In this document: positions 160-63,165 of the stretch, piece by piece
Position numbering within the stretch: position 1 is the first letter of the stretch
Layout: the number at the start of each line of letters is the position of its first letter
Source: Heterotrichella gracilis
Lineage: Eukaryota; Sar; Xanthophyceae; Tribonematales; Xanthonemataceae
NCBI GenBank assembly: GCA_032358255.1
Contig: JAULBX010001336.1
Span: 62,001 to 126,000 of the forward strand
Direction: 5' to 3'
DNA: 64,000 bases
Program-made: the position numbers and the translations under genes
Notes under the pieces: model-generated
Database searches by the model: none
What the model was told of the DNA's origin: nothing
What the model saw: only the letters and a program-made list of their open reading frames with translations

Positions 160-268
160 GCAGGCATGTTTGTGCCTGAGATTGCCATTACATCGGCTCT
201 GATCACCATTGCATCGGCGCTGATCACCTTGCATCCCTCCCACCGCAGGCATGTTTGTGCCTGCGATC
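160..268 (+). repeat. Intronic echo of CLC exon start (acceptor side)
   Basis: The acceptor and first codons of the exon at 249 (CCGCAGGCATGTTTGTGCCT) occur almost unchanged 83 bases upstream (about 162-186), followed by sequence that drifts away from the exon. A second usable AG is therefore present, but reading on from the upstream copy does not continue the CLC protein. Confidence 0.8.
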
Positions 269-3080
269 GCTGTGGGAGCCACCGGGGGCCGCCTGGTTGG
301 CCGATTAGTGGCCCTGATCGTGTACCAGATCGACCCAACCGTGGTCATCTCCCTCCCCTCCTATGCGGTGGTTGGCGCTACTGTGTTCCTCGGGGGCGCC
401 ACCCGCATGACCCTGACTGCTACCATCATGATCATGGAGACCACTGGATCGGTGCAGCTGATCATCCCATCCATGCTGGCTGTGTTTGTGGCCAAGATTG
501 TGGGCGACAGGTGATTGCTTGAACACAAATGCTGTCCACATCCATCAAATGGGAGCTGCCTGTGGCTACATAAAAATTGCATTAATTTGCACCTCTGAGT
601 GAAGAGGTAATCAAATGCAATATGACGGTATTGGGTATGATGCTGTATAATAACCACATAGATTATTAGTACCTCCCCCAACCATGTGGTACCTCCCATC
701 ATACTTCTCAGCAAGCGGTGGATGGAGTGGGCAAGTGAAGTTATTCTTCACCCCACATTACATTACATATGTGCCCGTAGAGGGATGCATCCACCGCCAG
801 TATTATTTACCTCGCCAACCACCATCCCTCCAGGTTTGGCCACGGCCTCGACGACACACACATCAAGCTGCGGGGGGCACCCCTGCTTGAGGAGCCTGGC
901 ATCGACCCTTACCAGAAGATGGTGGCGGACAAGGTGGAGGTGTCTGAGGTGGCTGTGGCGCACCTGCTGGCGCTGCCGCCGGTGGTGGGGGTGGTGGCGG
1001 CGGTGGACGCCCTGCGCGGGTCGGCGCATCAGGTGTTCCCCGTCACGCACCAGGTCAAGCAGGTGGGGTCTTAGGGTGTAGGCTTTAGGGTATCGTATGT
1101 ACGAGGGCTCTGGCTGCAGCCCTTGGCCCCTGCACATGACACCACGCCTGCCAACAAGCACTGATTCAAATTTATAAACTGATTTTGGATCAAACATTGG
1201 AATGGTTCAAAGGCAAATCCCCTATCATGGCGGCGCTGGGTGGCAAGACCTTGCAGCTACACGGTCATGTCACCCTCGGGAGCATGCAACGAATTAACAA
1301 CACCGATGCACCCAAATGACCAATCTCAGGATCGATTGCTAACTACATTCCACCCCGTCCACAGGCCTTTGACGGCGAGCCCTTCCAGCTGCACGGCGTC
1401 ATCACCAGGGTGCAGCTGCTGCGCATGCTGAGGTACAAGATCGGCCTGGTGGTGCCCGACCTGGGGGGCCACTTCCCGCGGCCAGAGAGCCTGCTGCCCA
1501 CCACGCAGGACAAGCGCGGGTACATTGTGGGCAAGATGGAGCAGATCCCGCTCAAGATTAGGCCAAAGGAGGACATGGAGAAGGTGTTCGGGTGAGTGTT
1601 CATGCAGTGCTTGTTGGTATATAAAAAAGATATATAATAGGCCCTAGGATTTTCAATGTCCTTCCCAGGGAACGCATGTGGCTTGACCGGGGCCCTTTCA
1701 TGCAGCCGCAGACATCCATCGGAAACCCATGGTGACAAACCGCCGTTGACAGTCACTGCAACACAACCTGGAGCCGCACCACCTCCTCCTGTAGCTGGAC
1801 CTCACTAACCCTGACCCAACCCCTGTCCCGCAGGACCCTCGAGCCCCACCACTGCGACATGTGGCTGGACCTCACCAACCCTCACATAACCCTAACCTTG
1901 CCCCCACCCCTGCCCTGCAGGACCCTTGAGCCCCACCACTACGACATGTGGCTGGACCTTCGCCCCTTCATGCAGCGGGAGCCATTTGTGGTCCAGCAGG
2001 GCAGCACCCTGTCCCGGGCCTACCGGTTGTTCAGGACCATGGGGCTGCACCACATGTTTGTGGCTCCAAACAACCCTACGGTAGGGTGTAGGGCTTACGC
2101 AATCCCCTTGCGAGGCACTTCTGTACCCCTTAACAGCAGCAGCACGTGGTCAGCAGCACATCTGTACCCTTAAATACTTTTCAAGCATGCTAGGATCCTG
2201 GTGCACTAGGATCCTAGTGCTTTGGCCCACCACCTTGAATCCCAGCTGCCTTACCCCTCGGCACCTGGCAAACACATGCACACATGTGCCACCCCATAAT
2301 GCCTGAATTAGCGCCCTCCCTGTTGCTCAGCCAATCGATGGTGGCCCACAAGCAGCTACTGTAGCTCCAGGATTGACCCCTTGCAATCCCTCCTCCCTTG
2401 CCGCAACCGTGCCACCACGCAGCGCGGTATCACTGGTGGTTGACACCCACCCACCCCCCAACAAGCTGATCCCCAACCCCCCCCTGCGCAGGTGGTAGGC
2501 CTGGTCACCCGCAAGGACGTGACGGTGGAGAACGCGCGCCTGGCCCTGGGCCGCAAGGCGCAGGCAAGGGGGTCGCAATCCGAGGGGGGGGAAGGGTCCA
2601 ATGACACCGAGTTGCTTCGTGAGCAGCTGCCGTTCATCCCCTACGCTGCGGATGATGTTTTCTCCCTTGTGCCTCACGGGGAGGGGAGGGTGCTGCCGGG
2701 GTCGCTCCACATAGACGACGAGGTGGGTGGCGCAAACCCTTTATTAAAGCAGCAGTGTGCGAGGGGTGGCATAAACCCTTCATTAGGGTTGAGTGTTTTG
2801 GAGGGCGAGGGGGGAATCCTGCCAGGCTCCATGTGGGTTGCAGAAACCCTCCGTTGGGGTTGGGATATGCAGGGTGCGGGGTGGATTTCCTCTAATGGAC
2901 TGCCTGCTGGGCATCCTTTTCACGCCGCTTCATTTGTTTGCCACTAGATCCCTTCCTCCTCCTCACACTCCTCCTCAACCGCACCCAAAACCGTTGCTTA
3001 CCCTCCTCCCCTCCCCACACGTGCAGCTGCTGCAAGATCCTTCATCGGAGGAGTCCTTTGGGGGCCCCACCCAGGTATGA
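249..3080 (+). CDS. CLC-type chloride channel/transporter with CBS pair (5' end outside window)
   Basis: Membrane anion channel or Cl-/H+ exchanger of the CLC family; only the C-terminal part (about 383 residues) is here. Exons by phase: 249-510, 834-1053 (or to 1062), 1365-1591, 1921-2080, 2492-2722, 3027-3080, stop TGA. The first exon carries the anion-site motif GMFVP followed by GATGG, then LGGATRMTLTATIMIMETTG and a last hydrophobic helix ending AKIVGD, all typical of the second half of a CLC pore. Two cytosolic CBS domains follow; the first contains GVITRVQLLRML, the second MQREPFVVQQGSTLSRAYRL to VVGLVTRKDV. A poorly conserved acidic tail ends EESFGGPTQV. Oddity: after the last helix the protein reads FGHGLDDTHIKL, where CLC proteins usually have Tyr (GLYD). 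Introns at both sides of several exons hold decayed exon copies. Channel versus exchanger cannot be told, because the GxGIP and gating-glutamate parts lie upstream. Confidence 0.9.
1671..1960 (+). repeat. Four-copy echo array before CLC exon 4
   Basis: The start of the exon at 1921 (acceptor, then codons for TLEPHHYDMWLDL) is preceded by a near-perfect copy at about 1829-1881, a weaker one at about 1763-1812 and a trace of the next part of the exon (ATGTGGCT..CCTTTCATGCAGC) at about 1676-1712. Divergence grows with distance from the true exon. The copies are separated by words such as ACCCTAACC. Only the last copy continues the CBS domain. Confidence 0.85.
2683..2850 (+). repeat. Donor-side echo of CLC exon 5
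   Basis: The 3' part of the exon ending at 2722 (gagggtgctgccggggtcgc, 2685-2704) recurs in weaker form about 120 bases downstream in the intron (about 2802-2833), with AAACCC..TTAGGGTT words between the copies. Confidence 0.55.
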
Positions 3081-4855: not shown

Positions 4856-7800
4856 TTAGGCGGTGGCCGCGGCGGCCTTTTGTGACGGCATGTCGAATGC
4901 GCACACCAGCTTGTTCCTTTGCAGCACCTGGGCCACCTGGGCGAAGGGGGTTGCACCCAGGGCGGTGGACACCACACCGCCGAACGCGGGGTTGACAAGG
5001 TCGCACACGTAGTTGAGGGTCTGCGGGAGGGGAGGAAAGGGGGGTCAGGAGTCTGGGAGTTAGGCACGGGTTTGTGACACAAGGCTTGAGGTCATTGATC
5101 AAAGTATGATTCACCGTTTAAACGTCATTCACAACATATGCAAAATAGCACCAATAGCATGCCAAAAGCACTTGGCCACCAGCTGCCACGCCTGCTAGCG
5201 GCATAAAGCCGTTTAACATTTCCTAAGAGTAACAAGAAAGGAAGTAATTTTCTGTATATTTTAGATGGATGGATAAGTGAGTGAATACGCAATATAGCAG
5301 TTCCCACAACAATCCCCACCAGCTCTAGATCAGACAGCAAGGCTATATACCATCCATGTTGATGTTGATATATACAGGGTATATATATAAATAAACTAGA
5401 TACGCAATATATACTCGAATACCCAGTATATAAAGTCAAATACCCAGTACATTCTCATGCTGTGGTGCATGGGCGCTCACCACTCTGTCCAGGTAAAGGG
5501 TTCAGGGTTTAAGTTTTGCTCACCACTCTGTCCAGGAAGCGGGGGACGGAGTCGTAGTATGCGAACAGGTTCTTGCCTCCCTGGGATGCAATCACCACGT
5601 TCTTGGGGACCCTGCCGTTGCATGGGGTAACAGCGTTTCCGGAGGTGGGGTTCACGCCGTTGGCGGGGCAGGAGTAGCGGGTGTAGTCCTGCGATATAGG
5701 GGGGAGGTGTGCATGAGAAGGGGTGTGAGGGGAGGGAAAGGGGCATGTGCACACCCATGTGGTGGTAGTATGATTGAATTGTTAAGGGGAGGGACGTTAA
5801 GGTGGGAGGCGCATGAGGTACAGGGGCGACGAAAGTGGTTGGATCCACCAACTACTAGCCAGGCTTTGCTACAGGGTTGGTGTGACAATCTGCATACACT
5901 TGGGAGGCATGCACCACCCAATCCAAGCAGTAAGGGCCGTACAACACCTGTAGGTATACAAGGCCCTTTGATGTAGGGTTTAGGGGTTAAGGTTTTTTTT
6001 CCCACCTGCCCGGTGAGCAGGCGCCCTACCACCGCCACGTCAGCAGCCCCAGACAGGAACGCCTGGATGGCCACGTTGTCGCTGGTGACGTTGCCCACGT
6101 AGACTGCAACAAAGGGGTCGCGATTGTACTGGGCGGCGGTGGAGGCGATGTTGGCGCCGGTGGCGGCAATGGCAACCACCCTCCACGCATCCTGCAGGGG
6201 GGGGAAGGGTTACAACTGAAACTTGTAATCAGGGACCAGGCATTGAGGTGGCAGGTCGGAACTGGGATGAGGTAGGATTTAGACAAAAGGGTTGAATTTG
6301 TACTGTGCGGCGGCGGAGGTGAAGCGCAGGACATACCTAGTGGATCCCTAAAGAGGGTTATTCTAGTGTAAAAACTTGCATCAGGGGGACCCAGGTAAAA
6401 GCAGTGGTCAACAGGTTGTGGAGGGTGGGGTGCAGCACTTGCAGAATCCTTTGACAAACCCTAGCATGCGGGCTGCAAGATTGGCATTCACTGTCCTCTC
6501 AAACCCTTGGCCTTCAACCTAGGGTTAGTCCCCACTTCTGTACCTAGCATCCAAGTCCCCATCACCCAATCCCCACCTTGCAGAACAGGAATTGCTGGGG
6601 TCCGCCGACAAAGGTGGGTCCCGAGTAAGTGCTCAGGGATCCGCAGCCTGCAGCGGTCTGGGATGCAGTTGCGTCGGCCAATGGGAAGCCACCGCCATCC
6701 TTCACCACTGCCTGGCCAGCTGCAGGGGGGGGAAGGATGGGGAGGGGGTCAGCATGGGAGGGAAGCGGGGCGGGTGCGCACACAATTGGGAGAGAATGTG
6801 GGCAGGAGTGACTAGAGGTTGGGACAGGCGAATGGAAGGATGATGGTCCTCTCTGGGATTGGGAGCCAATCCATGGGCAGGGCCATTAATTCAAATAAGC
6901 TGCGGTGGCCATGTGTCAATCGCATGGCATTGCATTCAATAGGGAGGGAATTGGAGGATGTGGGCAAACACACATCTACGTCAGGTACCAATCCCTCAAC
7001 CCAACCTGGATCCCGCCAGCCATGCAAACAGCCCTAGGCTGGTGTTTGTTCAAACTCTTACTTGTTGGCTGCACACGAGTCACCACCAATCATACAAGCC
7101 TAAACACCCCCGTGCATGAGTCGATACGGCAAACATGACACCTCTTTGCTCTTTGTGGGTGCGCCCCCTGGGAAAACCCCCTAGGGCTTTGCCCAGGGTT
7201 TGTTAGACTTTCTGCCCGCACCTGGCGTCAGCAGCCCGCACACAGCGCGTTGGCCCAGGTCGTTTGTTGTGTCCACGTATGCGTAGACTGTGCGGTACAG
7301 GGGGTAGGCGGCGGTGGCCTCAAGGGGGTTCACGCCATCCAGGGTCACGGGCTGTGGGGGGGGGGGGAGGCGGGGGGTTAAAGGCAGGTAATTTGTGACA
7401 AGGTCTCAAGAAACATTAAAGTAGCATTACAACTGTGATTACTAGCTTTACAATGAAAGCTCATAAACTGCATCCACGTACGTGGACAGCTGCTGCCAGG
7501 CATGTTGAGCACATGCTTGATGAAGAGCAGAGACCCCCGACAGATTCCACAACAACTGCCAAGAAGCCTAATGCTTCACGCCATGAATGGCCACAAAAAG
7601 CCCCCACTTCCCACACCCCACACAACTAGCCCACACACCTTGATGGCGGAGGCATCCTCAGCGCCGTTGATGCGGGCGGTGGAAATAAACCCTGCGGCGT
7701 TAGGGTTTCCAGCCACGGCAGCCAGCAGGGAGTCCTCATCTGCATAGGAGGTGGTGGATGGGCCCTTGGGTGCGGTGATGCCCAGCTTGTTGATCACGGT

Positions 7801-11389: not shown

Positions 11390-14300
11390 ATGGCTGGGTC
11401 TCTCACTCGCGCAGCGCTGCTGCTGGCACTGGTAGCCGTTGCTGCCAGCCAAGCAGACTACTCCTCCATCACGGTAGGCATGCTTCGAACCTGGGCCCAC
11501 CCTGGGACCAACCGAGCTGCGGCTCTCATACTTGTTACCACAGCGCCGGCTCTATCATGTCGGCAGCTGGCCTTTGTCTTGTCTGTACGCCACCAGTACA
11601 CCGCCGTATCTCTCGTACGCTTGCGCCTTTGGGGCCCTTCGAAGTGCCCTTGCATTGCCCCTTCGAAACACCACACTACACCACCTCCTCGCCTCACCGC
11701 TTGCTGTGTGCCTCCCGCAGAGCTCCCCCAAGGACAACGCTGCTATGAAGTGCGTCGACCAGGTGGGTGCACTGGCAACGCTCGCCCTTCCTGCCCTTAC
11801 TGGGCTGCAGCGACATAAACCCCGTTCGCAAATTGAGTCCTAACAACAATCAGCCCACAAAGCCCATATGTATGATGCATACCAAGTGTCAGCAGCCATG
11901 ACACCCAGTGCAGGATTGAGACTTTCTTTGGTAGTTAGGTAGGCTGGAATGGTGACGAACACTAAGTCTCCTTGCCTAGGCCTAGGCATAGCATGGTCTT
12001 GCCAACTTGTGCTACAGTTTCCACTAAGGTGATTCAGCTCACCGTTACAACCATCAGGCCTGGGCTTTTTGTAAGCCAGGTGGTATTATTGCGCCCTGAG
12101 TAGCGATATAGCAATAAGCCAGCCAGCTTATGCAGATTCTGTGATTGGGATGTGTCACGCTCTTTGCCAGGCGTGCAGCTGCGTCCAAGGCCACTCCTCT
12201 CTATGAGTAGGGTTGTCGTTAGGGTTAACGTGAGTATGAGGTACAGTTTAGGGCTTCAACTGTCAGGTGGTCACAGCTGTCAGCGGACGGCTGGGGATAA
12301 TGACCTGTGGCTGTGGTCCCCGGGACAGCAGCACACCTGCTTTGTCCATTTTCAAAGCCACCGGGTGCACCTGCGAACAGTGACAGTGGAGTGTTGTGCA
12401 TAAGCAGATGCTGCGGGCTTTGGCAACGGGCACGTGCATCACTTGCAACAAGTGCATCAAAATTGGAGGAAATGACCCAGTTTAGGAACTGGTAGCCCAT
12501 TCGCTCCCATGCAATTAAGTCCTGAATCCCTCTTCCTCCTCTACCCACACACGCTGGAGTACTAACCCCTCCTCCCCTTCCCTCCCCTGCAGAACAACAT
12601 TGTGCAGATCGGCTCCTCCACTGTGTTTGCCGCTTCCCAGGCAGCATCCATCAAGTACCCCAACCCACTGCTGGCGCCACAGGCCATCCAGACCGGCACC
12701 ACCCTAGGGTTCCAGGTGCGCTGCAAGAAACCCTAGCAGGACCCTTACCAGGTTTGCCATGAACCAGGTGCTCTTGTTACAAGGGCTTTTCCCAATGTCA
12801 GATGCAACTGAAGTGGCCTACCCAGAAAGTAAGGCCCGGGCAGGTGCGACCATTCTTATTATTGTCACACAGCTGCAGCTTATCCCCACTTTAGCCACGT
12901 GCTTGCGCTGCTCGCCAGGTGTCACACACCCTACTCCCCACCCCACCAAACCTGTCTTTGCTCAGTCCAGCAATATTGCCACCACCTCACTATCCCCCAC
13001 TGCCTCGCCCACAGCCTCACCAGATTATACAACCCTTATTGCGCCCCGTTCCCAATCTCCGCTGAAAGCATTTCCTAAGGCCCTGATGCCACACATAATC
13101 TGCCAGCGCTGGCACCAATTTGCCATCCCTGACGTGCTCCATCCCACAGAGCTTCCCTGGTTACTCTACGAAATCTTCCATCCCTGTGCCTCTTTCCAAT
13201 CCCCACCCTGCAGACCTTCTTCCCTTACTCCACAAAAACCTGCCATCCCTGATGTGCCTTATCCCACATCCCCGCAGAACTTCTTTGGCTACTCCAGTGA
13301 CATCGCTACCGCCTCCCGCCAGCTCAACCAGGCCGACTACAATGCCTCCGACTGCAACCCCTCGTTTGTGTCAAGCGCGGGAGTGACAGGGCCATGCCAG
13401 GGCAGGTTCCCGGTGGGCGTGCAGGTGCGCGGGGAAACCCTAAACCATATACCCTATGTTCTTGTGTGACAGGGCCTTGCCAGGGTAGGAGAACGCTGAG
13501 GTAGCCTTGATCAAACTCTGGGACATTCCTTGTCAGGTGAACCACACCAAGCAGGACACGGTGGGGGTTGGGATACCTGAAAAGGAGGATAAGCCTGTGC
13601 GGACATTGGCAGTGGGGAAAATACGATGTGTGCAGGCAGGCTTTAATCCTCATTGTCAACTTTAAGTACCCAAACTACAACCCAATTTGCAACCCTGTGG
13701 TGGCTTGGGGCCTTGCCAAAACCCACTTTACCGCCCTCCCAAGCGCAGGTGGGCTATAACCCGCTGACCTTCATCGCCAACCCCATCCAAAACCCTCATT
13801 AAAACCCTAGGCAACACCCCCGTCCCCTGTGTGCAGGTGGGCTATGACCTGCTGACCGTCATCGCCAACCCCCAGGCCACATGGGTGCCAGACTCCGTCT
13901 CACAGGACCAGCTCAAGCAGATCTTCTCGGTAAGGAGAAAAACCCTCGGCCAGTGTCTGAGCCAGACGTTAAAACCCAGTGGACACAACGCCATTGGTTA
14001 GCAATGACTTGGTGATTTGGGGGGTTGGCGTACGCCTGGGGCAGATTTGTATTGTACCGTGGTCAGCAAAATGCGGTGTGTATCTTGCACTCCTGGCTGC
14101 AAAATTGGGGAAGTGATACAGGGCTGTGCAGTGCAGCGTTTGGTTTGGAAAGTGTCAAGTTTGAAGCACTGCCCTAAGCTAATCTCCCATGCAGCCCAGT
14201 TGGCCCTGTGCAGGGTGTATCGTGCTGGCCCTAAAGGGATTTTTCTTTTAAAATGTGTGCAGGGCAACTACCTGCATAGGGTGTATGGTGCTGGCCCTAA

Positions 14301-17300
14301 AGGGACTTGTCTTCTAAATGTGTGCAGGGCAACTACTTGTGGGGCGGCATCTTCAAGGGTGCACAGAACGTGCCCATCATCTTCTACATCCCAGACGCCC
14401 AGTCAGGGTAAGCCCAAAACCCTTAACCTCCCAGACGGACAGTCAGGAGGCCCATACCTGACCTCAGCGGTGCACCCTTCACCCTACACCCTCGGCAATG
14501 TACCCTTATGCAGGGTTTGTGACGTGTTGGGTAACTACCCCTGGGGCCATTGTCTGCCCACCACAGTACAAGTACACCTTTTCATGATATACTTTGGCTT
14601 GCTTGTGTGTGAACCATAACCTGGACATGGCTACATGTGTGCCAAGTGCTTGTGATACTACTCACCTCCCCCCTTGCAACATTTGGAAAGGTGCCAACGG
14701 GCAAAAGCCCACCCCAAAGACCTTGAACGCATCCACACAGCCTCAGAAACACAAACAAAATCCTTTTCACCTCAGCCTGCCCCCCCCTGCAGTGTGGATG
14801 ACTACTCACAAGCCCTCATCACCCACTAGCTAACCCTAAAGACGTCCACAAAAACCTAACACCCCCTCCTCCTCCTGCAGTGTGATTGACTACTTCCAGC
14901 AGGCCACCGGCACCATGCTGCCCACAACCCTAGGGTACTCCGATGAGCGCTCCATCGTGGACGGTGTGGCCAACGACCCCAACGGCATTGGCCTGGTCAG
15001 CAGGGGTACCGCAATGAACGCAGGTAATAAATGTTAGCTGATTAGAGTTCAAACTCAGGGTTTATGGTTTGAGATTTGAAGCAACGGCATTGGCCTGGTC
15101 AGCAGGGGCACCGCAATGAACGCCAGTAACAATTGATGGCCGAGTATGGCTTATGGTTTAGGAGATGAGCCAGCGGTGTTGGCCTGATATGCAGGGTACC
15201 GCAATGAACTCAAGCAGACAATTGTTGGTTGTTCCGGTAAAGTTCTGTGGTTTAAAGTTAGACCCCAAGAGTATTGGCCTGACCAGCAGGGAACCATAAC
15301 GGACACAGGTAACAAAGGTTGGAAAGGGTAGCGACGTGGTTAACCTAAGGTCAACCTCATGACCATGCGTAGGTTAATTTGCGGGGTCAAGCCGGTTTCC
15401 AACAAGGAGTCCTCCTTGGCAATGTCACCTACAACACAGCCGCCACCAAAACCCAAGCATAGGGAAATTTCATTGGAGAGCAACACAGGGAAACCTTGAG
15501 AAGTCCTTTCAACCCTAGCCCGCTTCATAACCCTGACACCGCCTTGGAAAACCCTAACGTAGGTTGTTTTCTTCACTGCAGGCTCCGTGGTGAAGGTTGT
15601 GTCCATCGATGGCTTCTCCCCAATCAACGCCACCTCAGACACCGCCGCCACCTACATGCTGACCCGCCCCCTGCTCAAGTACTTTGACAAGTCAGCAGCA
15701 TACGCTTCCAAGGTCTACGGGGTAGGTGCCGCACCGGGAAACCCTATACCCTAATCACAAAGCCTAAGAAGTCAGCGAGCTACGCACCAAAGATCTACGC
15801 GACAAACTCTTATCCCCAGAGGGGTGCTGCAAACAGTGGGCCTTGATTGCGTTCATTATTCCTGCAAGGTCCAAATATCCCAGGTGTTCCGCGTTCATGT
15901 GTGGTATCCTGACCATCAAGGGCTGGAGCTTTGGCTACAAATACTACCTTTATATGCCTGTAGTTAATGCGCATTTCCTTATCTCCCAGGTGTTGGAGTT
16001 TATCTGCGGTATCCTGACCGCTGAGGGCCAGAAGGTGACTGCCTCAGCGGGCTACATCGCCCTCAACGCAGCCGACCTCAAGACCAACAACGACCTCATC
16101 AAGTGCGCCGACCGCATCGGTACCTTCAAGGACATCGCACTCACCGGCACCATGGCCGAGATGGTGCGCAAAACCCTTAAACCCTAAACGACCTGCTCAA
16201 GTGCTGTGTCCGCAAAGGAGCCTGGAAAGGGCGCTTCATGAAGTCCATGGCCGGTGAGCAAACCCCCGGGGGAAATCCTCTAAACTCATAACACTGACCG
16301 GCACCATGATTGACTGTGCCCACCTGGGGTGTGTGCAAAACACTTATAAACCCTGCTCTAGGTTCTTCTTGACCAATATGCCTGTCGCGCCTCGCCACCG
16401 CCCCACACACGGTGACAATACCCTGTCACGCACCCGCCTAGTGCGTATCCCTGCTAATGAACATCTTGTGTGGTGGATCACCTGAAATACCCTTATCCAA
16501 ACCCTAACCAAACCCTGATTTCATCCTCATGAAACCCTCCTCCCCCCACAGGCCACCTGCCGCGCCTCCCAGCTGGTGAATATCATCCCAAAAACCCTAT
16601 CAAAACCCTAATCAAAACCCTCCTCCCCCCACAGGCCACCTTCCGCGCCTCCCAGCTGGTGAACATCATCCTGACAACCCTATCCAAACCCTAATCAAAA
16701 CCCTCGTCCCCCGCAGGCCACCTGCCGCGCATCCCAGCTGGTGAACATCATTTCCGAGGCCGCCATCGACCCAGTGGCCCAACGCCTGTCCCGGGTGCAG
16801 CCCAACCCCCTGCTCAAGGTCATTGCCCGCCCAGGGACCAGCACGGTGGCTTTCAGGGATTTGATTGTGGGCGCCATCCCCATCATCATGACCAACAGGG
16901 AGCTCACGTGAGTGGCGGGGGATCCGCTGGGGGGAGGGGGGTTGGGGTCCTGCGGAATTGTTTGGGGGGGTACGACCAGGGTGCAAAGCAATGAGAGTGG
17001 CAGAGCCCACCATATTCAAGCCCTCACATCCAAGTGTTGCCAACAGCATAGTATTTTAAAATTAGCCAATAGTTCCTTGTGCCGGCAGGTGATCACCAAC
17101 GCCACACCACCCACTCCTCCCCCATCCATGTAACCCCCCCCCTCCCCCCCCCTTGCAGCACCGACGACTACAACTCCTTCTCTTGCTCCGGTGAGAGCGG
17201 CGTGGTGCCCTCCGGTGACGGCCTCGAGTCATACGCCTCCCAGCCTTGCCAGGGGGTGCTACCAGTGGGCATCAAGGTGTGCTAAAACCCTAGCAAAACC

Positions 17301-19017
17301 CTGGATGAAGGGTGTTGGCAATGTCTGACAATCAGACTAGTTGCCTGTAGCTGTGGATGAGGTGATGGTGCTATCCTGCGGGGGAACATCGGCATCATGC
17401 TCACACATCTTGCCCCTTTGGCACATGCTTATAGTTTTAACTTCAAGACATAAAACATGGCTACAGCCAACCCCCTTTACAGGGTTTGAATTTACTCTAA
17501 ACCCTGACCTCCTCCCCCCTCCCCCTTGCAGCTTGGCCATGACCTGGTCATCTTTGTTGCCAGCGCCGAGAACCCCTACTTCACCTTAAGCCATGGACCC
17601 TAAACCCCAACCCCAGCTCCTCCCCCCTTCAGCTTGGCTACGACCTGATCACCCTTGTCGCCAGTGCCAAGAACTCCTACTTCACCCTGAACGCTCTCCC
17701 CCCCCCTGCAGCTTGGCTACGACCTGATCACCTTTGTGGCCAGCGCCAAGAACCCCTACTTCACCAAGGGCACCAACCTGGACATCCAGTCCATCTTCGA
17801 CCTCTTTGTGTTCCCCAAGCTGGCCAACCAGATTGGCATCTTCAACGGCACCAGCGGCAACACAAAGACGCCACCCGCGCAGCAGTTCAACCTCTATGTG
17901 CCAGCAAGGTGAGGGGGCGGTACACCAAAAAGCCTGCAATGGTCTGCAAGTAACCACATGGGGATTTCCCACTTTAGACTATGGCCTAGCATTTGCTAAG
18001 GGAGACAATCAACCTAGCCAGCACTCCAGCTCTCATAGTTTCTGCAGGGCCACCGCCCAGAACATACCCTAATCAAAACCCTAATCCCCATACCTCTAAC
18101 TCAATCCCCTCCACCCCCGCAGCACCACCGGTACCGCCCAGAAGTTCCTGCAGGCCACCGCCCAGAACGGTCTCAAGGGCTACACCGATGTGCAGCAGCA
18201 GCTGGATGACCTGTACGCAGACCCCATGGGTGTGGGCTATGTGTCCCTGGGACAGGTCGACCCAGCAAGGGTGAGTGGGGATCATAAAACTAAAGGGACT
18301 ATTTGCGCTACTGTGTAGTGAAAATGGGTCGAGGTCCTGATGCTGACCCACCATCGTGGGTTATATATGTCCATGGGGCATGTGGAACCCAACAAGGAGA
18401 CAGCCAATACATTAACAAAAATGCATATAAATCCATTTGAGATCATGATAATACCTGATATAATTCTGCGCCTGCAATCCTCGTCCTTCCCTTCACCCCC
18501 TCCCCTGACCCCTCCCTCCCCCCCCCCCAGGTCACCCCCCTTTCCTTCAACGGCTTCAACCCCTACTACCCCTCCGCCAACTACGACCTCACCAACTACA
18601 ACTTCAAGACCTACGTGTGGTCGTGGTTCGACAACTACAAGTACACACGCGCACAGAACGACCTGCTGTGCTACATGCTCAGCGCAGATGGACAGAGGCT
18701 GGTGGAGTACAGTGGGTACATCAGTATGAGCCAGGTACGGTATAAGAACAGTAAGAATAATAAATGTACCCGTCATGCTGGGACAGGGGCGGCATCCTGC
18801 AGCGTACGGTTTCTGTCCTCATATTAATTATATCTTATATAGCGCCGGGATGACATGTATTCCATTTGTTAAAGTGAACTGTTGGTGGCATGCTGCTTCA
18901 TTTATGACCCTCCAGAATGCAACCCTTCACTTGCTGAGTTGTTTTGCAATTGCTCCACAGGTGTCCGGCGCTGGCAGTGATGTGCTCAAGTCGCAGAGGA
19001 GCCAACTCCTGTGCTAG
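11390..19017 (+). CDS. Secreted protein with two PstS-like PBP domains (646 aa)
   Basis: Signal peptide MAGSLTRAALLLALVAVAAS, then two PBP-like domains (about residues 40-342 and 343-646); probable extracellular or periplasm-like binding protein, with phosphate or another anion as a guess. Fifteen exons, all phases closing: 11390-11473, 11721-11762, 12593-12715, 13278-13424, 13837-13929, 14328-14407, 14881-15023, 15582-15721, 15990-16163, 16717-16907, 17159-17276, 17712-17908, 18123-18270, 18531-18734, 18961-19017 (TAG). Domain 1 has QIGSSTVFAASQAASIKY, FFGYSSDIATASRQLNQADY, QDQLKQIFSGNYLWGGIF and NDPNGIGLVSRGTAMNAG; domain 2 mirrors it with GTSTVAFRDLIVGAIPI, GYDLITFVASAKNPYF and DPMGVGYVSL. 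Each domain has a Cys-bounded loop (ASDC..GPCQG; SFSC..QPCQG), perhaps disulphide-linked. It is the clearest host of exon echoes in the window: nearly every intron from exon 3 onward has at least one. Paralogous to the gene at 4856-10391. Confidence 0.88.
12953..13300 (+). repeat. Multi-copy acceptor echo before exon 4 of PBP gene
   Basis: The start of the exon at 13278 (acceptor, NFFGYSSD..) has weaker copies at about 13145-13170 and 13208-13236, plus a trace of the following exon part (cagcaatattgccaccacct, 12970-12989). The 5' flank tgccatccctga is copied with them (about 13121 and 13242), so the duplicated unit is about 120 bases of intron plus exon. Confidence 0.75.
13746..13880 (+). repeat. 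Acceptor echo before exon 5 of PBP gene
   Basis: The acceptor plus about 33 exon bases at 13833-13872 (caggtgggctatgacctgct) are preceded by a close copy at 13746-13785 (caggtgggctataacccgct). Words such as ACCCTCATTAAAACCCTAGG lie between the copies. Confidence 0.85.
14210..14345 (+). repeat. Tandem echo before exon 6 of PBP gene
   Basis: A unit of about 65 bases (gtgtatcgtgctggccctaa to tgtgcagggcaactac) occurs twice in direct order; the second copy runs into the true exon at 14328. The first copy also contains acceptor and exon start, so two acceptors 65 bases apart precede the same codons. Confidence 0.85.
14386..14905 (+). repeat. Donor echo after exon 6 and acceptor echo before exon 7
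   Basis: Exon 6 ends tcccagacgcccagtcagg (to 14407); a near copy tcccagacggacagtcagg follows at about 14430-14448. The start of exon 7 (ctgcagtgtgattgactact, from 14875) has an upstream copy ctgcagtgtggatgactact at about 14787. Both ends of the same intron carry copies of their own neighbouring exon. Confidence 0.85.
14981..15312 (+). repeat. Four-copy donor echo after exon 7 of PBP gene
   Basis: The end of exon 7 (ggcattggcctggtcagcag, then the donor, 14981-15023) is followed by copies at about 15082-15130, 15171-15215 and 15269-15312. The first is nearly identical, the second and third increasingly diverged, yet the fourth still has AGGTAACA like the functional AGGTAATA. Spacing is about 90-100 bases. 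Words such as TTTATGGTTTGAG separate the copies. Confidence 0.9.
15690..16031 (+). repeat. Echoes on both sides of the intron after exon 8
   Basis: The donor-side exon end (gcatacgcttccaaggtcta, 15699-15718) recurs as gctacgcaccaaagatctac about 75 bases downstream. The acceptor-side exon start at 15981-16031 (cccaggtgttggagtttatc) recurs upstream at about 15879-15928, with ggtatcctgacc conserved in both. Confidence 0.8.
16088..16333 (+). repeat. Donor-side echoes of exon 9
   Basis: Two parts of exon 9 recur in order in the following intron: aacgacctcatcaagtgc (16088) as aacgacctgctcaagtgc (16187), and ctcaccggcaccatggccga (16141) as ctgaccggcaccatgattga (about 16285). The copied unit is therefore longer than the exon edge. 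An ACCCTTAAACCCTAAACG string sits at the junction. Confidence 0.8.
16425..16752 (+). repeat. Triplicated acceptor before exon 10 (second PBP domain)
   Basis: The true exon start (gccacctgccgcgcatccca, from 16717) is preceded by two copies with acceptors of their own at about 16552 and 16634, each ending gtgaa(c/t)atcatcc and followed by AAACCCTAATCAAAACCCT. A fainter trace lies near 16425-16470. The two close copies differ from the exon at only a few sites, so they look young. Confidence 0.9.
17520..17766 (+). repeat. Triplicated acceptor before exon 12
   Basis: Acceptor plus about 55 exon bases (encoding LGYDLITFVASAKNPYFT) occur at about 17527-17588, 17632-17691 and 17706-17766. The first two differ at several sites and run into stops or frame loss; only the third continues. 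GACCCTAAACCCC lies between copies one and two. Confidence 0.92.
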
Positions 19018-20598: not shown

Positions 20599-23500
20599 AT
20601 GACACAGCCCAGCACAATGACTTCCACCTTCCTCGCCATGACACCCTCCTCCACCCGCCATTCCACCCCCCGACACCTGGTTGGAAACAGCACCCCACGC
20701 CTCCCCTTCCCAATCTCCTCCTACTCCAGAACCTCCACATCATGGGGCCCAATTCAGGCATCCCCGCCCCTACGCCAGGCCCTTCCCAGACCCCGTGTGG
20801 TGCGGTGCATGGCGGGCAATCCCAGGCGAGGCAGTGAGGAGCAGCAACCGGACCTCGCCCCTGTGGCAGTGCCACACTCGCTGGAGTACAAGGCAAGTGT
20901 AGCAATTGCCATTAAAATGCTGCATCTTCACAGAGTTGGTGGGGTAAGAGTTTAATGCTGATCAGAGTCAGGTGGCAGTGTCTCCTACTCCCTCCCATGT
21001 CCCTCCCTCTGATCCAATCGGATTAACATGTGCATCGTTGAGTCACGTGATGATCAACCATGTCCCTCCCTCTGATCCAATTGGATAACATGTGCATCCT
21101 TGAGTCACGTGATGATCAATGCTCATGATTGCTCTCATGTTACATTCTCCCCCCATTCCAGGTTGTGTCTGAGGACCCCTCCCCCTACTTTGACTCCTTC
21201 CTGCGCACCTTCCTGCTGGGGCTGGGGGCAGGGGCGGTGCTGGAGGCGCTGCACCTGACAGTCACAAAGGTGGGGTGCGTGTGGGAGTGGGAGGGCTCCG
21301 CATGTGGCATGTGTGGGGTACCATGTGGACGGTTCTAGCCCCACAGCCATGTGTGCAGCGCTGCATGGCAATGCGGGAGTGCACATAGAGGGGTACTATG
21401 TGGATGATTTAAGCCAGATCATGGGACTGTGGTCTCTGTAGATGATGGTGGTGACACGGGCTGGCGTACATGGCCACACAATGATGTTGCTGGGGTGCGC
21501 TGGGTGTGTACACATGCATGTGGGGGGCATGTGAGGGCATGTCATCCCGCCAGTGGCGGGGGTATGTGGTGGCATGTGCATGTGGCGGCAATGGTGGTGG
21601 TGGGTGGCCATTATCTTTTGTCAACCAGTCATGGGTAAACTTTACACCTCGTTGCATCATGTGGCCCCCCTTTGTAACGCACCTACAGTACGCCCCTCCT
21701 ACCCCCCCCTTTTGCTTTGACAGTATCCCCCTTACCCCGCAGGTGCTTGGCCCCTCCCCTGCCCTGCCCTCCCTGCCAGGGGTGTACGACATGCTGGTCC
21801 GCGCCCTGGCACAGCCAGCACCACTGTACTTTGCAGACCATGCGCTGGCCATGTGAGTAAGGGAAGGGGGGGTTATATACTATACTTTGAGCCTTAAGTC
21901 GGTATTAATCCTTGTGATTATCATCTATATAGGTATGAATGCTCCTGTCAAGGGGTTATTAACAAGGGTTATTAACAGGAACCGTCTCATCTGTCAATAC
22001 AAATTAAGTTGATCATCATGCACATGCTGTACATCATTCTCCATTTTAAGTACAAGTTTCTGACAAAGAAGGTTCCGCCTGTCAATGATCATACTCCGTT
22101 GCGCCTTCTGTGCAGTGGCCTGTGGGCAGTGCTTTTCCTGGTTGATGCGCTGGCTGTGAAGCGGGTGGTGGACAGGCATGTGGGGGACAAGGGCGGGGCG
22201 GTGAGTGGCCTTGGCAACCATTACAGTCACCCTTGATGCTGCTGTGGAACCTGGACTTGCGCACAAGCAGTGACTATGCTGATCGTCATGCACAAGGGAA
22301 TACATATGCTTGCGAGTGCCCTTGAACTTGACAACCCTTAGCTTTACCCTAAACCCCTACACAATGAACCAGGTAGCGGGCATACAGTCGTTGAGTGGTG
22401 ACTGTTTGCGCATTGACAGCAACCAGTCAGCCTGGTGGGCAGCAGATGGGCACTGCATGGCACCATTCGAGGCCTTGAAACCCTGTGTTTAGTAGGGAAG
22501 CACGCCACTGTCTCTGAAAACCAAGAATCAGCGCCTTGAGAGGCTTGGCCCCGGGGACTTCTGGCAATCCTTACCCCCACCTTCACTCCCACCCCCACCT
22601 GCAACCTCACCCTCCCCTGTGCCCCATCCCGCAGGTGCAGGAGCTGAAGCAGCTTGACACCCCCTCACGCCGCATCCTCCCCTTCCCCCTCCAAGGCCTG
22701 AAAAAACTCCTCCTGTCGGGGACCAGCCCAGCCACCGTCATGCGCAACGGGGACGGCGTCGCATCCCAGCCAAGTCTCAAAACTATTCCAGACCTGTCCC
22801 CAGCCAGTGGCACCACACAGGAGCTGTTGGCTGGCGCTGCTGCTCTGCCTGTGGTGGGGCCTGTCCCAGCTAGGGGTGGGGGGGGGATTGCGGGGGGTGC
22901 AAGGGGAAAGAAGGAGGTGGATGGCACGCTGAGCTTTCGCGACAAGGAGCTGAGGGATAGGATGGGCTACTTGAAGAACTTTTGGTATGCAGCAGGTGAG
23001 TGATAGGACAAAAGCAGATAGATAGGGCAGTGACTCCACCTGAGGATAGAAGCAAAGAGAAGAGAGGCAGGATCAAGCTGATTGAAGCAGTGCCCGCGTG
23101 GGGTTGGGCAAAATTGAAAAAACACACTGCATTTAGAGCATTTGCCTCCACCGGGGCGCCCCCCTCCTTCTAAGCAAAGACCTCATCCACCCCACACAAT
23201 GCACGCACCACATCCCCTCCTGAACCCACATTGCTCCACTTCCCGCAGCCCTCTCCTCTAACGTCACCGACAAGCCCTTGGGGGTGGAGCTCCTCTCCAT
23301 GCGGGTGGTGCTTTTCCGCGGCAAAGACGGGAAAATCCATTGCATCAATGATGTGTGTCCCCACCGAGGCGCCCCTCTGTCCCTGGGATGGGTGAATACT
23401 GTGGGGGGCAGGGACTGCGTGGTGTGCCCCTACCATGGGTGGGCGTTTGACGAGGGGGGGGTGCTGCGGGATGTGCCATCCGACACTGAGCACAACTGGC

Positions 23501-45476: not shown

Positions 45477-47981
45477 ATGGCGTCAGCTCAACTCCTCTCC
45501 AGCAGCGTGGTTGCCCCTCGGTCTTCCATCAACGTGTCAGGTATTGCCCTGCTACCTTCAGCAAGATGGCGTTACGAAACTACCCATCATGATTCGCACC
45601 CAACCCCGCCCACCTGGTACTCTGTCCGTGACAGTGTGAACACCACGCTCCTGCAGGTGCTAGGCGGTCCAGTGCCTCCCTCCGTGCCAGTGCGAGGCGC
45701 CCCGGTGTCGCCCGTGTGAGCGTTGTCACCAGGGCCGTGCAGCAAAAAGACCCAACCATGGCACTCAACGCAGCGCAGCAGCGCTGGGAAACTTCGGTGC
45801 GCTGCCCAAAATGCTGAACCTACCCTGGGGTTCATTTGAATCCTGATACTTCTGTTGTATCTGTTGCCAGGGCACAGGAAGCGGTTGTTGGTTTGTTTGG
45901 AATGGGCCGCATCTTTGTCAATAGAGTCAATCTTTCCTGTGCTAGGACATGCCTGGTTGGTGAACCCCTTTGCTGCCGCGGGATTCTAGCCCTCTGCATC
46001 TGGTTTTTAACAAGCTCTTGCTGTTCCTTGCAGATCAGGTCTGGGAAGATAAAGAGCGTGCCTGCCAAGGATGCTGCACAGATGGTGGAGGTCAGTCAGA
46101 CGGCCACCCGCATGGATGCACTGTTGTTAGCATCCCACTGTACGCCTGTGAGCAAGGTGCATCCGTTGCTCCCTCCGTGTAATATGTTTACGCTTTGTGG
46201 TTGTGCAGGATGGCTGGACCCTGCTGGACGTGCGGCCACCAAACGAGATTGCAAAGGTGAGGGCAGGAGCCTGGTTGCAAGAACGCTGCTGCACCCCCTT
46301 GCTCACACTGCCAGGCGCTTGTTCATTTCCTGTAACTGCACCACATTGGGTCGTGTTTGGAACTTTGATATGGCCCGATCCTGTTGCCAGCTGCAGTGGC
46401 ATAACAGCCCTTGCGGGAAACAGGGGGAAAAAGTGGTATTCTCCGCACGACACACCCCTTGACCTCCCCTCCCCTGCTGCCCCAGGTCGGTATCACATCC
46501 GCTGTGACTGTCCCCCTGTTTGTGGTCGATGATGACCCCTCCCCTGCCACGCTGCTCAAGCAGGCCACCGCCTTTGGCATGGGCGGGTGGTGGCTGGGGG
46601 GGGCGCACATGAAGCCCAACCAGGAGTTCCTGGGCCAGGTGCAGGCCAAGATCCCTAAGGACGCCAAGGTGGTGGTGGGGTGCCAGAAGGGTTTGAGGTG
46701 CGCGGCGGTGGTGGTGGGGGAGATTGCCTGCTAGGTGGGAGTTGATGGCGAGCAGGCACTTGGCGGTGGCTATTGGTAGATGGGAGTGTTGGTGGCAGGT
46801 GCCACCTGCACGTGATGGCTGCTTCATGAATGGTGGTACACACGGTGTGCTTGGGTTTGACAGTGGATTGTTTTTATGCCAATTGCAAATTCATGTATCT
46901 ATAAATCATTTTTTTTATAATTTTTATAATATACTACCGTAGTACATTGCCGGCTACTCAAGCTCTTGGGGATAGATGCTGGATTCCAGCAAAGCAGGTT
47001 TCACAAATTGCAGCACCATGCCCGCAATTCCAGCCAAAACCCCAGCACTAAAATGCCACCCATCCACCGCACAGGTCCCTGGCGGCCTGCGAAGGCCTGT
47101 CCCGCGCCGGATACGAGTCCATCGCCTGGGTCAACGGGGGCTTTGACACCGCCAAGGGGGGCGAGTTCAAGACCGACAACGGGAAGGACATACGATTTGC
47201 CGGCATTGGCGGCCTGTCGGAGCTGCTTGGGTGGACCGAGGTGCAGCAAACCGAGGCCGCAGGCTTTGCCGGAGGGTTCCAGAACATCATCAAAGTGGTG
47301 CGTGTAGGGTTTGATCAGGGTTTGGGGACACCTTGGGCGTGGTGCGCACAGGGTTTGCCAAGGGGTCATAGGACATCATCAAGGCATCGGAGGAGGGTTT
47401 GGGGTTGGTGCATGCTGCTGGGACGGTGGTGTAGAGAGGTGGGCAGGATGGGTGTGCGTAATGATGCACCGCCACCCGTTTCATTGCAGATCAAAATTCA
47501 ATCTCAGGAATTGTCATACATGTCTCTCTGCTCGTGGCAGATGACATGCATGGCAATGTCCATACTAGGAGCTTGAGCGGCGTTGCATACTCATACCAGG
47601 GATCGGGGACATTGCTCCAATTGTTGTGGTAGACACGCATGCATCACAATGACAAAGTATATCGTGCCGCATATGTTATGCCTGTGTGGTTGAGGTATTG
47701 TTCGCAATATACAGAAAAGCATGCTGCAGTGATCATAAGCGTACGGTATTCTGATTGCCAAACGGTAGTGCCAGAAGTCAAGTGCAGCTTGTGCAAGGCT
47801 GCCTGCTGGTCTCATAGGCTGCTGCATACTCATGAGGCTGCATTGCTGCATGTAAAGCCGCCGCATACTTACCCTTGCTGGCGCCCCTCCCCTCCTGCAG
47901 CTGATTGTGGTGGTCATCCTGGACGGAGCTCTGTTTGCATACGAGATGTTCCAGTCGATGTCAAACGCACCCCCAAAGTAG
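45477..47981 (+). CDS. Plastid rhodanese-domain protein with C-terminal membrane anchor (274 aa)
   Basis: Sulfurtransferase-fold protein predicted in the plastid, probably thylakoid- or envelope-anchored. Exons 45477-45540, 45657-45796, 46034-46090, 46209-46256, 46486-46697, 47075-47297, 47901-47981 (TAG), phases closing. N-terminus MASAQLLSSSVVAPRSSINV plus Arg/Ser/Ala-rich second exon is a transit peptide. Rhodanese domain about residues 80-235: DGWTLLDVRPPNEIAKV, FGMGGWWLGGAHMKPN, active-site loop VVVGCQKGLRSLAACE (Cys169), and YESIAWVNGGFDTA. The last exon encodes LIVVVILDGALFAYEMFQSM, a single membrane segment. The layout resembles plant STR-type single-domain plastid rhodaneses. The substrate is unknown; many relatives are thought to be non-enzymatic scaffolds. 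The 3' end of exon 6 may be at 47294 or 47297. Confidence 0.88.
47277..47395 (+). repeat. Donor echo after rhodanese exon 6
   Basis: agaacatcatcaaagtggtg (47281-47300) recurs as aggacatcatcaaggcatcg about 90 bases downstream, and each copy is followed within 15 bases by GGGTTTGATCAGGG or GGGTTTGGGG. Confidence 0.65.
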
Positions 47982-53189: not shown

Positions 53190-60909
<7,720 letters not shown>

Positions 60910-61354: not shown

Positions 61355-63033
61355 ATGGCAGACGAGGACGAGTATGCTGGGTAGGTATATGCATGCATGC
61401 GGCTTTGTTTTGCGTCGCTCGCTGTCTGATGCAGCAGGTAGAGCCGTGCAAAGGAAATATGCAGTTAACATGAGCCTACTTTTGCTCCTCAGGTATGCAG
61501 AGGAGATGATAGAGGAGCAAGAAGAGGTGAGGGGCGGCAGGACCCACGCATTGCGCCACCAGATGCATGCACGCACATTCTCCCTGCCCGAGAAAGTTTA
61601 GGTCGTACCTGTTCGTACTACGCTGGTTTCTTACAGCCTTAGTGCTTTTTAATCGTTTGGTTATTGCCCTGTTGGCGTGTTTGGGTCGGCGATGTCATGC
61701 TGATATGCATGCATATGGCTACCATGCATGCACATATGCGTGAACTCCAGGTGTCGCTTTTTTCGCTTTAGCTAACCCGGTTGATGACTTGTCTTGGCAT
61801 TTCTAGTTTCGGTGCATATTATAGAGCCTGCACTTGGTGACACTTTTCTCCGCGCTGCTGCTGTCAGTCAACCTGGGTGCTGCTGGGGGATCCTGCCTTT
61901 GGCGCAGAACACCCCACCCACAATTAATCTAAGCTTGCATTTCAAATGGTTTATGGTTACCTGAAACAAGCATCACATAAATCCTGGATAGTATGCCCCT
62001 CATGTGGGCATAACAAAGTCACGACCGTCTCTCACATCCTTAGCTGCACTGGCGTGAACTGTCAGGTGATACATAACTCGGCAGTTATTGGCATGTGGGT
62101 GATCCATTGGTGCATGGAGGTTTAGGAGTTCCATAGGGTGTGAGGATAAGGGTAAAGGGTTTGGCGCCTAAACCCTACACCCTTATTTTGCACGCAACAA
62201 AAATACCCGGCAACACCAATAGAATCGGCTGTTCACATCACGCACGTCGTCCATTGCCCCATTCCACAAGTTGCCAGTCATTTCACCTCCGTCATCCGTT
62301 GCCCCAGTTCATGGAGGAGGGTTTCAAAGGGGAGGGTGGATTAGGGTTTACCATTTGGTGTCTAAACCCTAACCACAGCATCCCTGGCCCCAGTTCATGG
62401 AGGAGGACTTCCAAGGGGAGGGAGGGGAGGGCGAGGAGCGGGTGGAGGTGCTGGACCAGCAGCCGCGCCCATCCCAGGGACCACGCATCACCACACGCTA
62501 CATGACAAAGTATGAGCGGGCCAGGGTGCTGGGCACGCGGGCGCTGCAAATAAGGTACGCATCAATTAGGGTGTAGAGTGCTGGGCGTGCGGGCGCTGCA
62601 AGTAAGGTATTCTAAAATGCCACCTGGGCATGGCGTCATGCATGGATTGATCATGGGTGGTGGGCGCATGCGCTGACGGGGACAACAGTCCATCATAGCC
62701 ACGTTCCATGGCGTCCTTTGGCTGAGGACATACATGATAGTATCGTGTGCTTCATCACAAGGGTGATGGTTGAGGCACATCACACCACCCACAGCCTCTC
62801 AGCCGGCCTCGCACCCACCCGTATATTTTCCAACCCACCCACCCCACCCCTCCAACCCCCTGTGCAGCATGAACGCCCCTGTGATGGTTGAGCTGGAGGG
62901 CGAGACTGACCCGCTGGAGATTGCCATGAAGGAGCTGCGCGAGAAGAAGATACCGTTCACCATCAGAAGGTACCTGCCAGACGGGTCGTATGAGGACTGG
63001 GGGGTGGATGAGCTCATTGTCACGGAGCGGTGA
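61355..63033 (+). CDS. RPB6: RNA polymerase subunit RPB6/RPABC2 (128 aa)
   Basis: Shared small subunit of RNA polymerases I, II and III that steadies the clamp. Exons 61355-61380, 61493-61526, 62394-62554, 62868-63033 (TGA); phases close to 128 residues, matching the family. Acidic N-terminal tail ([20 protein letters not shown]) followed by the conserved core [60 protein letters not shown] and [13 protein letters not shown]. The third exon and the gene end have echo copies on both sides, although the protein itself is under strong constraint. Head to head with AlaRS. Confidence 0.96.
62299..62428 (+). repeat. Acceptor echo before RPB6 exon 3
   Basis: ccccagttcatggaggaggg (62303) and ccccagttcatggaggagga (62389) are the acceptor and first codons of exon 3, in two copies 87 bases apart, followed by tttcaaaggggaggg and cttccaaggggaggg. 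GATTAGGGTTTACC and CTAAACCCTAACC lie between. Either AG keeps reading for a few codons, but the upstream copy does not lead in frame to the core. Confidence 0.9.
62520..62612 (+). repeat. Donor echo after RPB6 exon 3
   Basis: gtgctgggcacgcgggcgct with gcaaataaggtac (to 62557) recurs as gtgctgggcgtgcgggcgct with gcaagtaaggtat about 51 bases later. Two nearly identical donors; ATTAGGGTGTAG lies between them. Confidence 0.92.
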
Positions 63034-63165
63034 CCCTAACCTAGGGTCCGGGAATAGGGGGGGGGAGGTGATGCCATGCTAGGGTTTTGGGGGGAGAGCG
63101 CTGCCAACGGGATCTGGGGAACAGAGAAGCTCATGGTATGGAGCGGTGATCCTAGCTAGGGTCAA
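63009..63165 (+). repeat. Echo of RPB6 gene end beyond the stop
   Basis: gagctcattgtcacggagcg plus gtgaccctaacctagggtc, spanning the TGA (63011-63049), recurs as aagctcatggtatggagcgg plus tgatcctagctagggtc at about 63128-63163. It shows that the duplication process is not limited to introns. Confidence 0.8.

Follow-up and report, generated by a model that had tools for sequence, protein, structure and literature searches.

Patch-mediated repair in plants, reportedly described by Schiml and others in 2016, Daphnia intron gain and introner elements belong to the background of the structure considered here. In mammalian cells, CST and Pol alpha-primase fill in complementary 3' overhangs, which are then joined end to end, giving small tandem duplications (PMC8355091). 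Interstitial telomeric sequences are inserted at mammalian double-strand breaks, with telomerase as the proposed agent; of the cases tabulated in PMC2246262, 6 of the 130 from rodents and 4 of the 25 from primates have a duplicated flank. Plant telo boxes peak in 5' untranslated regions and reach intron densities of 150.7 per Mb in Arabidopsis and 72 per Mb in rice; telomerase has been proposed to make them on 3' ends freed by transcription (PMC3022908). Nearer to splicing, Rogers and Bendich (2025, PMC11782384) report direct repeats of 4–30 bp (mean 11.4) on or close to the boundaries of introns and exons, and a duplication crossing an intron-exon border yielded a new intron in the potato RdRp case (PMC4974935). 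The subject of this report is a 64-kb stretch of the genome of the xanthophycean alga Heterotrichella gracilis (contig JAULBX010001336.1, positions 62,001 to 126,000; hereafter the window, numbered from its first base), in which introns repeat the border of the adjoining exon, often across a filler of telomere-like words; we call these copies echoes.

Echoes share with the fill-in duplications a local copy of tens of bp, there formed at breaks by a machine that also serves telomeres; the portions of PMC8355091 considered here mention no telomere repeats between the copies, whereas 34 of 58 fillers in H. gracilis are telomere-like, and the enzymes at work here are putative. Telomere repeats at repaired breaks, sometimes with a duplicated flank, are common ground with PMC2246262, but in its tabulated cases duplication is a minority outcome, whereas in H. 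gracilis the telomere repeats are commonly accompanied by a duplication of about 50 bp, and the events cluster at coding borders. Telo boxes are likewise short telomere motifs in genes for which telomerase has been suggested; the same portions of PMC3022908 describe no flanking duplication, and the densities quoted above compare with 1504 copies of AAACCCTA per Mb in H. gracilis introns, counted on both strands where the plant counts may differ in strand (intergenic DNA has 422 per Mb, in a sample partly picked for telomere words). Nor are the tracts concentrated upstream of coding starts as telo boxes are: they number 1.3 per kb in the 100 bp before start codons, whereas the first 25 nt of introns have 7.1 per kb and the remainder of the donor half 0.8–2.9. 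PMC11782384 likewise deals with direct repeats close to splice sites and, as far as the portions considered go, compares the surroundings of 5' and 3' borders, whereas H. gracilis borders recur in their own intron, at greater length and with telomere-like filler. The potato duplication (PMC4974935, seen in part) similarly crosses an intron-exon border, but there a new intron results and here an old one grows. The ingredients, fill-in duplication and telomere insertion at breaks, are therefore known; we found no description of their combination, and among the matches listed in open-access full texts, a scope that leaves most subscription papers outside, none that reports exon borders duplicated around telomere filler.

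The assembly comprises 68.5 Mb in 903 contigs, with telomere words of plant type and genes whose make-up would by itself point to a green alga. Our sample joined the window to 25 stretches of 10 kb (L009–L033), making 314 kb or 0.46% of the genome; L009–L028 were mostly chosen near listed telomere dimers, and L029–L033 by position only. Genes were modelled without RNA by a purpose-built semi-Markov hidden Markov model gene finder, trained on the same DNA, which returned 417 exons with sharp splice motifs (donor MAG/GTRAG-like, acceptor GCAG/G). Six window models, some with hand-set borders, translate with a single terminal stop, and Pfam domains were found in the six proteins submitted (PBP, CLC, RPB6, rhodanese/UBC, Rieske), while a check of the exon models by protein homologues returned none at E <= 0.001. 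The echo test covered 305 of 339 predicted introns (75 of 84 in the window), namely those with both flanking exons of at least 30 bp in genes with at least 300 bp of coding sequence. A query made of the final 45 bases of the exon and the adjoining 6 of the intron, mirrored at the acceptor, was compared with the same intron at a main threshold of score at least 34 and a relaxed one of at least 30; controls were the introns of other genes (3050 pairings per edge type) and the reverse complement of the intron itself (305).

The exon-edge echoes are confirmed and hold across the genome sample. At the main threshold a copy of their own border is present in 47 of 305 introns, at 28 donor and 25 acceptor edges, against 0 of 3050 for each edge type with other genes' introns, and 0 of 305 for each with the reverse complement; an earlier, sequence-only reading of the window had put forward such a comparison of introns with their flanking exons for every gene in the genome. 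The relaxed threshold gives 36 donor and 28 acceptor edges, with 3 and 0 of 3050 in the other-gene controls and 0 and 1 of 305 in reverse complement. Echoes occur in 26 of 64 genes, and at similar rates however the sample is divided (12/75 introns in the window and 35/230 in the rest; 16/108 in the window plus L029–L033 and 31/197 in L009–L028). The earlier reading had put the number of such borders above fifteen and that of the genes at six or more, with each border repeated one to three times, and both statements stand: at the relaxed threshold 19 exon edges in 17 of 75 window introns match their own intron, in the CLC, both PBP, acidic-protein, rhodanese, alanyl-tRNA-synthetase-like and RPB6 genes, with the CLC pairs 141/226 and 1805/1892 in addition, and 71 edges have one echo in 54 cases, two in 14 and three in 3. 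Its further remark that farther copies are more diverged is borne out weakly, the nearest echo scoring higher at 11 and lower at 6 of the 17 edges with at least two. More generally, the window holds 25 local direct repeats with copies no more than 1000 bp apart, a class that is empty in three local dinucleotide shuffles. In the sample, 138 pairs of direct repeats lie within 500 bp of each other and 25 at greater distances, with no size peak; 131 of the 138 were kept, seven being dropped because the copies were too close together or of low complexity. Local direct duplications of tens of bp, the mark of small tandem duplication by break repair, are far above chance. Close-paired matches resembling further echo arrays were also seen in the whole-genome pattern search, at G000:C163:40927/41023, C263:56276/56346, C325:44967/45131, C427:13597/13652 and C695:118965/119034.

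An artefact of assembly or gene modelling might be suspected where the models are our own, made without RNA, and the assembly is in 903 contigs. We give this hardly any credence, since the copies differ by 4% to about 30% and hence are not read errors, the splice motifs are sharp, the six window models end in single stops, and the result holds separately in the window plus L029–L033 and in L009–L028.

The typical form is X, filler, X', with medians of 48 bp for X, 53 bp for the filler and 104 bp for both together (64 edges, relaxed threshold), and the copied boundary stands within the intron at a median distance of 99 bp from the donor (36 edges) or 109 bp from the acceptor (28 edges). The CCCTAAA-like words that the earlier reading noticed between copies are a real feature: 34 of 58 fillers of at least 10 nt are telomere-like, against 161 of 2747 random intron segments (6%), and the reversed word gives 9 of 58. 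Telomere words number 19.2 per kb in spacers, 12–14 in the copies, 2.6–4.3 in 100-bp flanks and 3.9 in the sample as a whole. The identity of X to its copy correlates with the telomere score of the filler (rho 0.43, p=0.003, n=45), as expected if copy and tract arose together. Across the genome, dimers of the word, assumed to be the telomere repeat of the species, number 2784+2845 against 3+2 for the reversed word, so that telomere-word repeats stand at many non-telomeric sites, far above chance; whole-genome pattern counts agree with the sample. The tracts occur in either orientation relative to their surroundings, as do interstitial telomere insertions at breaks, and they become sparser with distance from the coding sequence, both inside introns (from donor and from acceptor) and beyond stop codons.

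Slippage or unequal exchange could instead have duplicated segments that already held telomere-like tracts, the words being common in introns and simply carried along. Arrays without a spacer and with the tract inside the unit (L031:3535/3637 and the window array at 16499) are what such a process would give, and introns without echoes are themselves rich in telomere words (6.0 per kb). In young pairs, however, the tract lies between the copies (L031:4814-4863/4892-4941, 96% identical, filler atgcgcgaccctaaacccgaaaccctaa; L031:5531/5599, filler ataagtaaaccctaaaccctaaaca; L028:8893), and both the richer telomere content of spacers than of copies and the correlation of X identity with filler score speak against it; we regard slippage as unlikely.

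A second alternative takes the echoes for tiny retroelement or transposon insertions, with X as a long target-site duplication and the telomere repeat as the tail of a 5'-truncated element such as a Penelope or non-LTR (long terminal repeat) element. An X-insert-X structure is formally a target-site duplication, and algae are home to retroelements associated with telomeres. At about 50 bp the copies are nevertheless long for target-site duplications, and only 25 pairs, with no size peak, have more than 500 bp between them, against 138 that are closer, within the limit that 10-kb stretches set on long inserts. Once telomere words are masked, none of 1321 pairs of fillers from different introns are alike (score at least 34), so the fillers are not a transposon family, and we hold this explanation to be improbable. 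The same result, together with the lack of intron-creating geometry described below, sets the echoes apart from introner elements.

Where arrays lie points to coding borders. After merging of overlaps, 93 arrays were compared with random placement of the same geometry: 57 join a coding edge to an intron against 19.8 expected, and 10 a coding edge to intergenic DNA against 4.3, while intron-intron (7 v 17.7), intergenic (7 v 30.3) and coding-coding (12 v 20.0) arrays fall short. Arrays bridging coding and non-coding DNA are about three-fold above random. The 21 arrays of the window plus L029–L033 alone give 15 v 3.7 for edge-intron, 1 v 0.8 for edge-intergenic, 2 v 4.2 for intron-intron, 1 v 7.2 for intergenic and 2 v 4.9 for coding-coding. 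Edge pairs are easier to recognise because their exon copy is conserved, a bias simulated at 1.27-fold and by reasoning about two-fold at most; edge arrays are enriched about 7-fold over purely non-coding ones after the first correction and about 5-fold with the second. Neither GC nor CpG content differs significantly between edges with and without echoes. The border excess that remains beyond detection bias poses the new question of why exons, and its simplest reading is that breaks would start preferentially in exons and most would then be lost by selection.

Within exons, the matching is almost confined to edges. Inner exon segments compared with the intron (score at least 34) match in 3/253 and 1/258 cases at an offset of 51, in 0/180 and 1/187 at 102, and in 0/105 and 0/113 at 153, and segments from intron interiors match the rest of their own intron in 12/274, 9/303 and 14/272 cases; elsewhere, local repetition was found in 14 of 1398 intergenic segments compared with their surroundings and in 30 of 797 exon segments compared with the rest of the exon. 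Of 58 genes, 8 have an echo of their stop-codon edge in the 3' flank, whereas queries against the downstream DNA of other genes match in 2 of 3306 cases; for start codons, an echo in the 5' flank is present in 2 of 56. Because stop-codon edges are echoed as often as splice edges, splicing is not the cause; the near absence of matches to inner exon segments and the stop-codon echoes together give the rule that the extra copy must stay untranslated.

The orientation of the telomere tracts fits the same filter, being free where it is irrelevant and biased where splicing would care. C-rich and G-rich tracts stand at 78:73 in the donor half and 104:37 in the acceptor half of introns, and genome-wide at 104:123 beside CAGGTG and 144:55 beside TGCAGG; G-rich tracts before an acceptor would presumably supply false acceptors (TTTAG/G). 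The first 200 bp after stop codons (window and L009–L033) show 18 G-rich tracts to 1 C-rich on the sense strand, the opposite of the acceptor side, and at L018:2668 the stop codon TAG leads directly into a telomere-like tract.

The extra copies decay. Mismatches between exon and echo at codon positions 1, 2 and 3 number 45/574, 43/571 and 78/564 (7.8, 7.5 and 13.8%; 53 alignments), a pattern of u, u and about 2u that is that of a neutral echo beside a conserved exon changing mostly at position 3, and all 11 of these alignments that bear indels shift the frame. As a set, the echoes are not functional exons. They might yet be maintained as decoy splice sites, intronic enhancers or alternative exons: GT is kept in 26 of 36 echo donors and AG in 17 of 28 echo acceptors, and tracts are densest within 25 nt of donors. 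Partial retention together with neutral decay, however, makes the echo sites, the "arrays of competing splice sites" of the earlier reading, look like decaying by-products, and echoes of stop codons need no splice site at all, so that maintenance by function seems to us distinctly improbable.

The best explanation of the echoes is that they are scars of DNA-break repair, not designed elements. More specifically, we consider it probable that exons, or the DNA close to them, suffer staggered breaks whose two sides are both filled in, that telomerase-type DNA comes to lie at the junction, and that the survivors are those whose extra copy is untranslated. Such a break would leave single-stranded overhangs of about 50 nt; fill-in from both sides would duplicate the overhang sequence X; and telomere-type DNA, most simply added by telomerase to an exposed 3' end, would enter before joining, the product being X, telomere repeats with some other bases, and X again. 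An insert inside an exon would break the frame or introduce a stop and be removed by selection, whereas one downstream of a donor or stop codon, or upstream of an acceptor, could survive. The conserved copy would remain exon while the other decayed neutrally, lengthening the intron by some 100 bp per event, and some longer arrays may come from later homology-driven expansion of the X-plus-filler unit. CST fill-in duplication, telomerase at breaks and telomerase on freed 3' ends, if joined, predict just such a scar. Telomerase is the likeliest candidate source of the telomere DNA, with captured telomere fragments as another candidate; the genome encodes telomerase-type matches (both at one place on contig C626) and Ku matches. 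A bolder version, which we entertain only tentatively, is that exon breaks are routinely treated as chromosome ends, telomerase extending the 3' overhang and the telomere fill-in machine copying the other strand before the ends are joined, and that this is a main source of intron growth, its scars mapping exon breakage.

Several results weigh against the break-repair account. By the telomere score applied to the fillers, 24 of 58 are not telomeric. Duplicated flanks (score at least 36) accompany 10 of 33 telomere clusters with perfect runs of 14–20 bp and 2 of 10 with runs of at least 21 bp, the reversed-word control giving 11 of 182; telomere DNA may thus also be inserted with no long duplication beside it, or else the two are less tightly linked than proposed here. 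A junction-side test of telomerase priming gave a difference short of significance, 17 v 13 of 31 cases with one tie (p=0.27), and neighbours of mixed orientation stand as CG 21 and GC 14, so that the G-then-C order expected if both ends were extended is not favoured. Finally, no before/after allele or paralogue of window 11390-19017 was found in the organism's own genome.

The effect on introns is growth. Introns with echoes have a median length of 419 bp against 273 bp in others (p=1.6e-9). Rogers-type intron creation by duplication of AGGT, of which echoes would be the remnants, should leave the donor repeating the acceptor in register; no convincing case was found in 305 introns, and in-register donor/acceptor identity equals that of permuted pairs (256 introns). 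A single near-register match, at L025:2449-2716, was rejected as C-rich and of low complexity. Introns under 180 bp have no echo, and telomere words in only 4 of 41. Telomere tracts are denser within 60 bp of both intron ends than at 60–120 bp, even in the 242 introns free of echoes, as an origin in intron birth would allow; we nonetheless judge that origin very improbable, the negative answer applying to recent events. The lack of intron-creating geometry and the greater length of echo introns together indicate intron growth, so that of the earlier proposal, recurrent local duplication with telomere-type filler that lengthens introns or makes new ones, the first part stands and the second does not. 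This offers a concrete route of intron lengthening and shows why gene edges tolerate what gene bodies cannot; it also leaves break repair in genes on record in a form that can be read and dated, each event being marked by its telomere filler and timed by its neutral echo, and provides a natural system for asking whether telomerase joins repair away from telomeres.

Within the window the echoes can be followed gene by gene, on the plus strand unless stated. The CLC gene, whose protein carries the Pfam domains Voltage_CLC and CBS, has an acceptor-side pair at 141-185 / 226-270 (89% identity) and a duplicated acceptor and exon start at 1805-1872 / 1892-1959 (90%), with ACATAACCCTAACC at the border between the copies and two candidate exon starts, 1921, which we took, and 1834, the choice of the gene finder. 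Both PBP genes carry PF12849. The first, on the minus strand, has a donor-side echo of 19-bp copies at 5475-5493 / 5518-5536, with telomere-like filler at 5494-5517, and an acceptor-side echo at 7882-7933 / 7997-8048 (75%), also with telomere-like filler. The second has seven entries: an acceptor-side echo at 13745-13784 / 13833-13872 (92%, filler bearing AAAACCCT); a tandem copy of intron end and exon start at 14212..14339 (90%, 3-nt spacer); an exon end and donor with three decaying echoes at 14980..15320 (94, 82 and 76%); a donor-side echo at about 15689-15721 / 15769-15801 (filler AAACCCTATACCCTAATC); a CCCTAA tract, acceptor and exon start in three copies at 16499..16751, of which the last (exon from 16717) was taken as real; an acceptor and exon start in three copies at 17501..17765 (exon copy from 17712); and a short acceptor-side echo at 18037-18063 / 18143-18168 (filler ACCCTAATCAAAACCCTAATC). 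At 16499..16751 the gene finder drew 24-bp mini-exons in the earlier two copies, and these introns were excluded from the echo test by the 30-bp exon limit.

The acidic-protein gene (38315-41628) has a donor-side echo at 40251-40280 / 40343-40372, with filler bearing ACCCTAAACCCT. A weak donor-side echo (score 31, filler GTAGGGTTTGATCAGGGTTTG) lies in a rhodanese gene intron at 47298..47900, in a model (43288-48338) in which the gene finder fused rhodanese with a ubiquitin-conjugating enzyme. The gene at 53190-60909, which we take from its sequence to be alanyl-tRNA-synthetase-like, has a donor-side echo on the minus strand at 56591-56621 / 56714-56744 (87%). RPB6 (Pfam Rpb6) has an acceptor-side echo at 62293-62339 / 62379-62425, its filler holding TTAGGGTTT followed by CTAAACCCTAA, and an intron at 62555..62867 with a donor-side echo (score 50) and a 17-nt filler containing TTAGGGT.

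The window has other repeats as well. The Rieske-oxygenase gene has an intron-internal 63-bp tandem duplication at 20995..21119 on the plus strand (95%), with no spacer and no telomere word. The intronic segment 17018-17136 has a 95%-identical 120-bp copy at G000:C134:320101-320220, where no exon is predicted; these are the only two places among the matches listed, and the pair looks like an ectopic templated insertion. The acidic-protein gene contains a mostly exonic 141-bp repeat, 91% identical and 834 bp apart (40161-40300 / 40995-41134), which forms an internal protein repeat, and the adjacent genes at 28243-30754 and 32607-34862 are paralogous, their predicted proteins being closely alike by eye.

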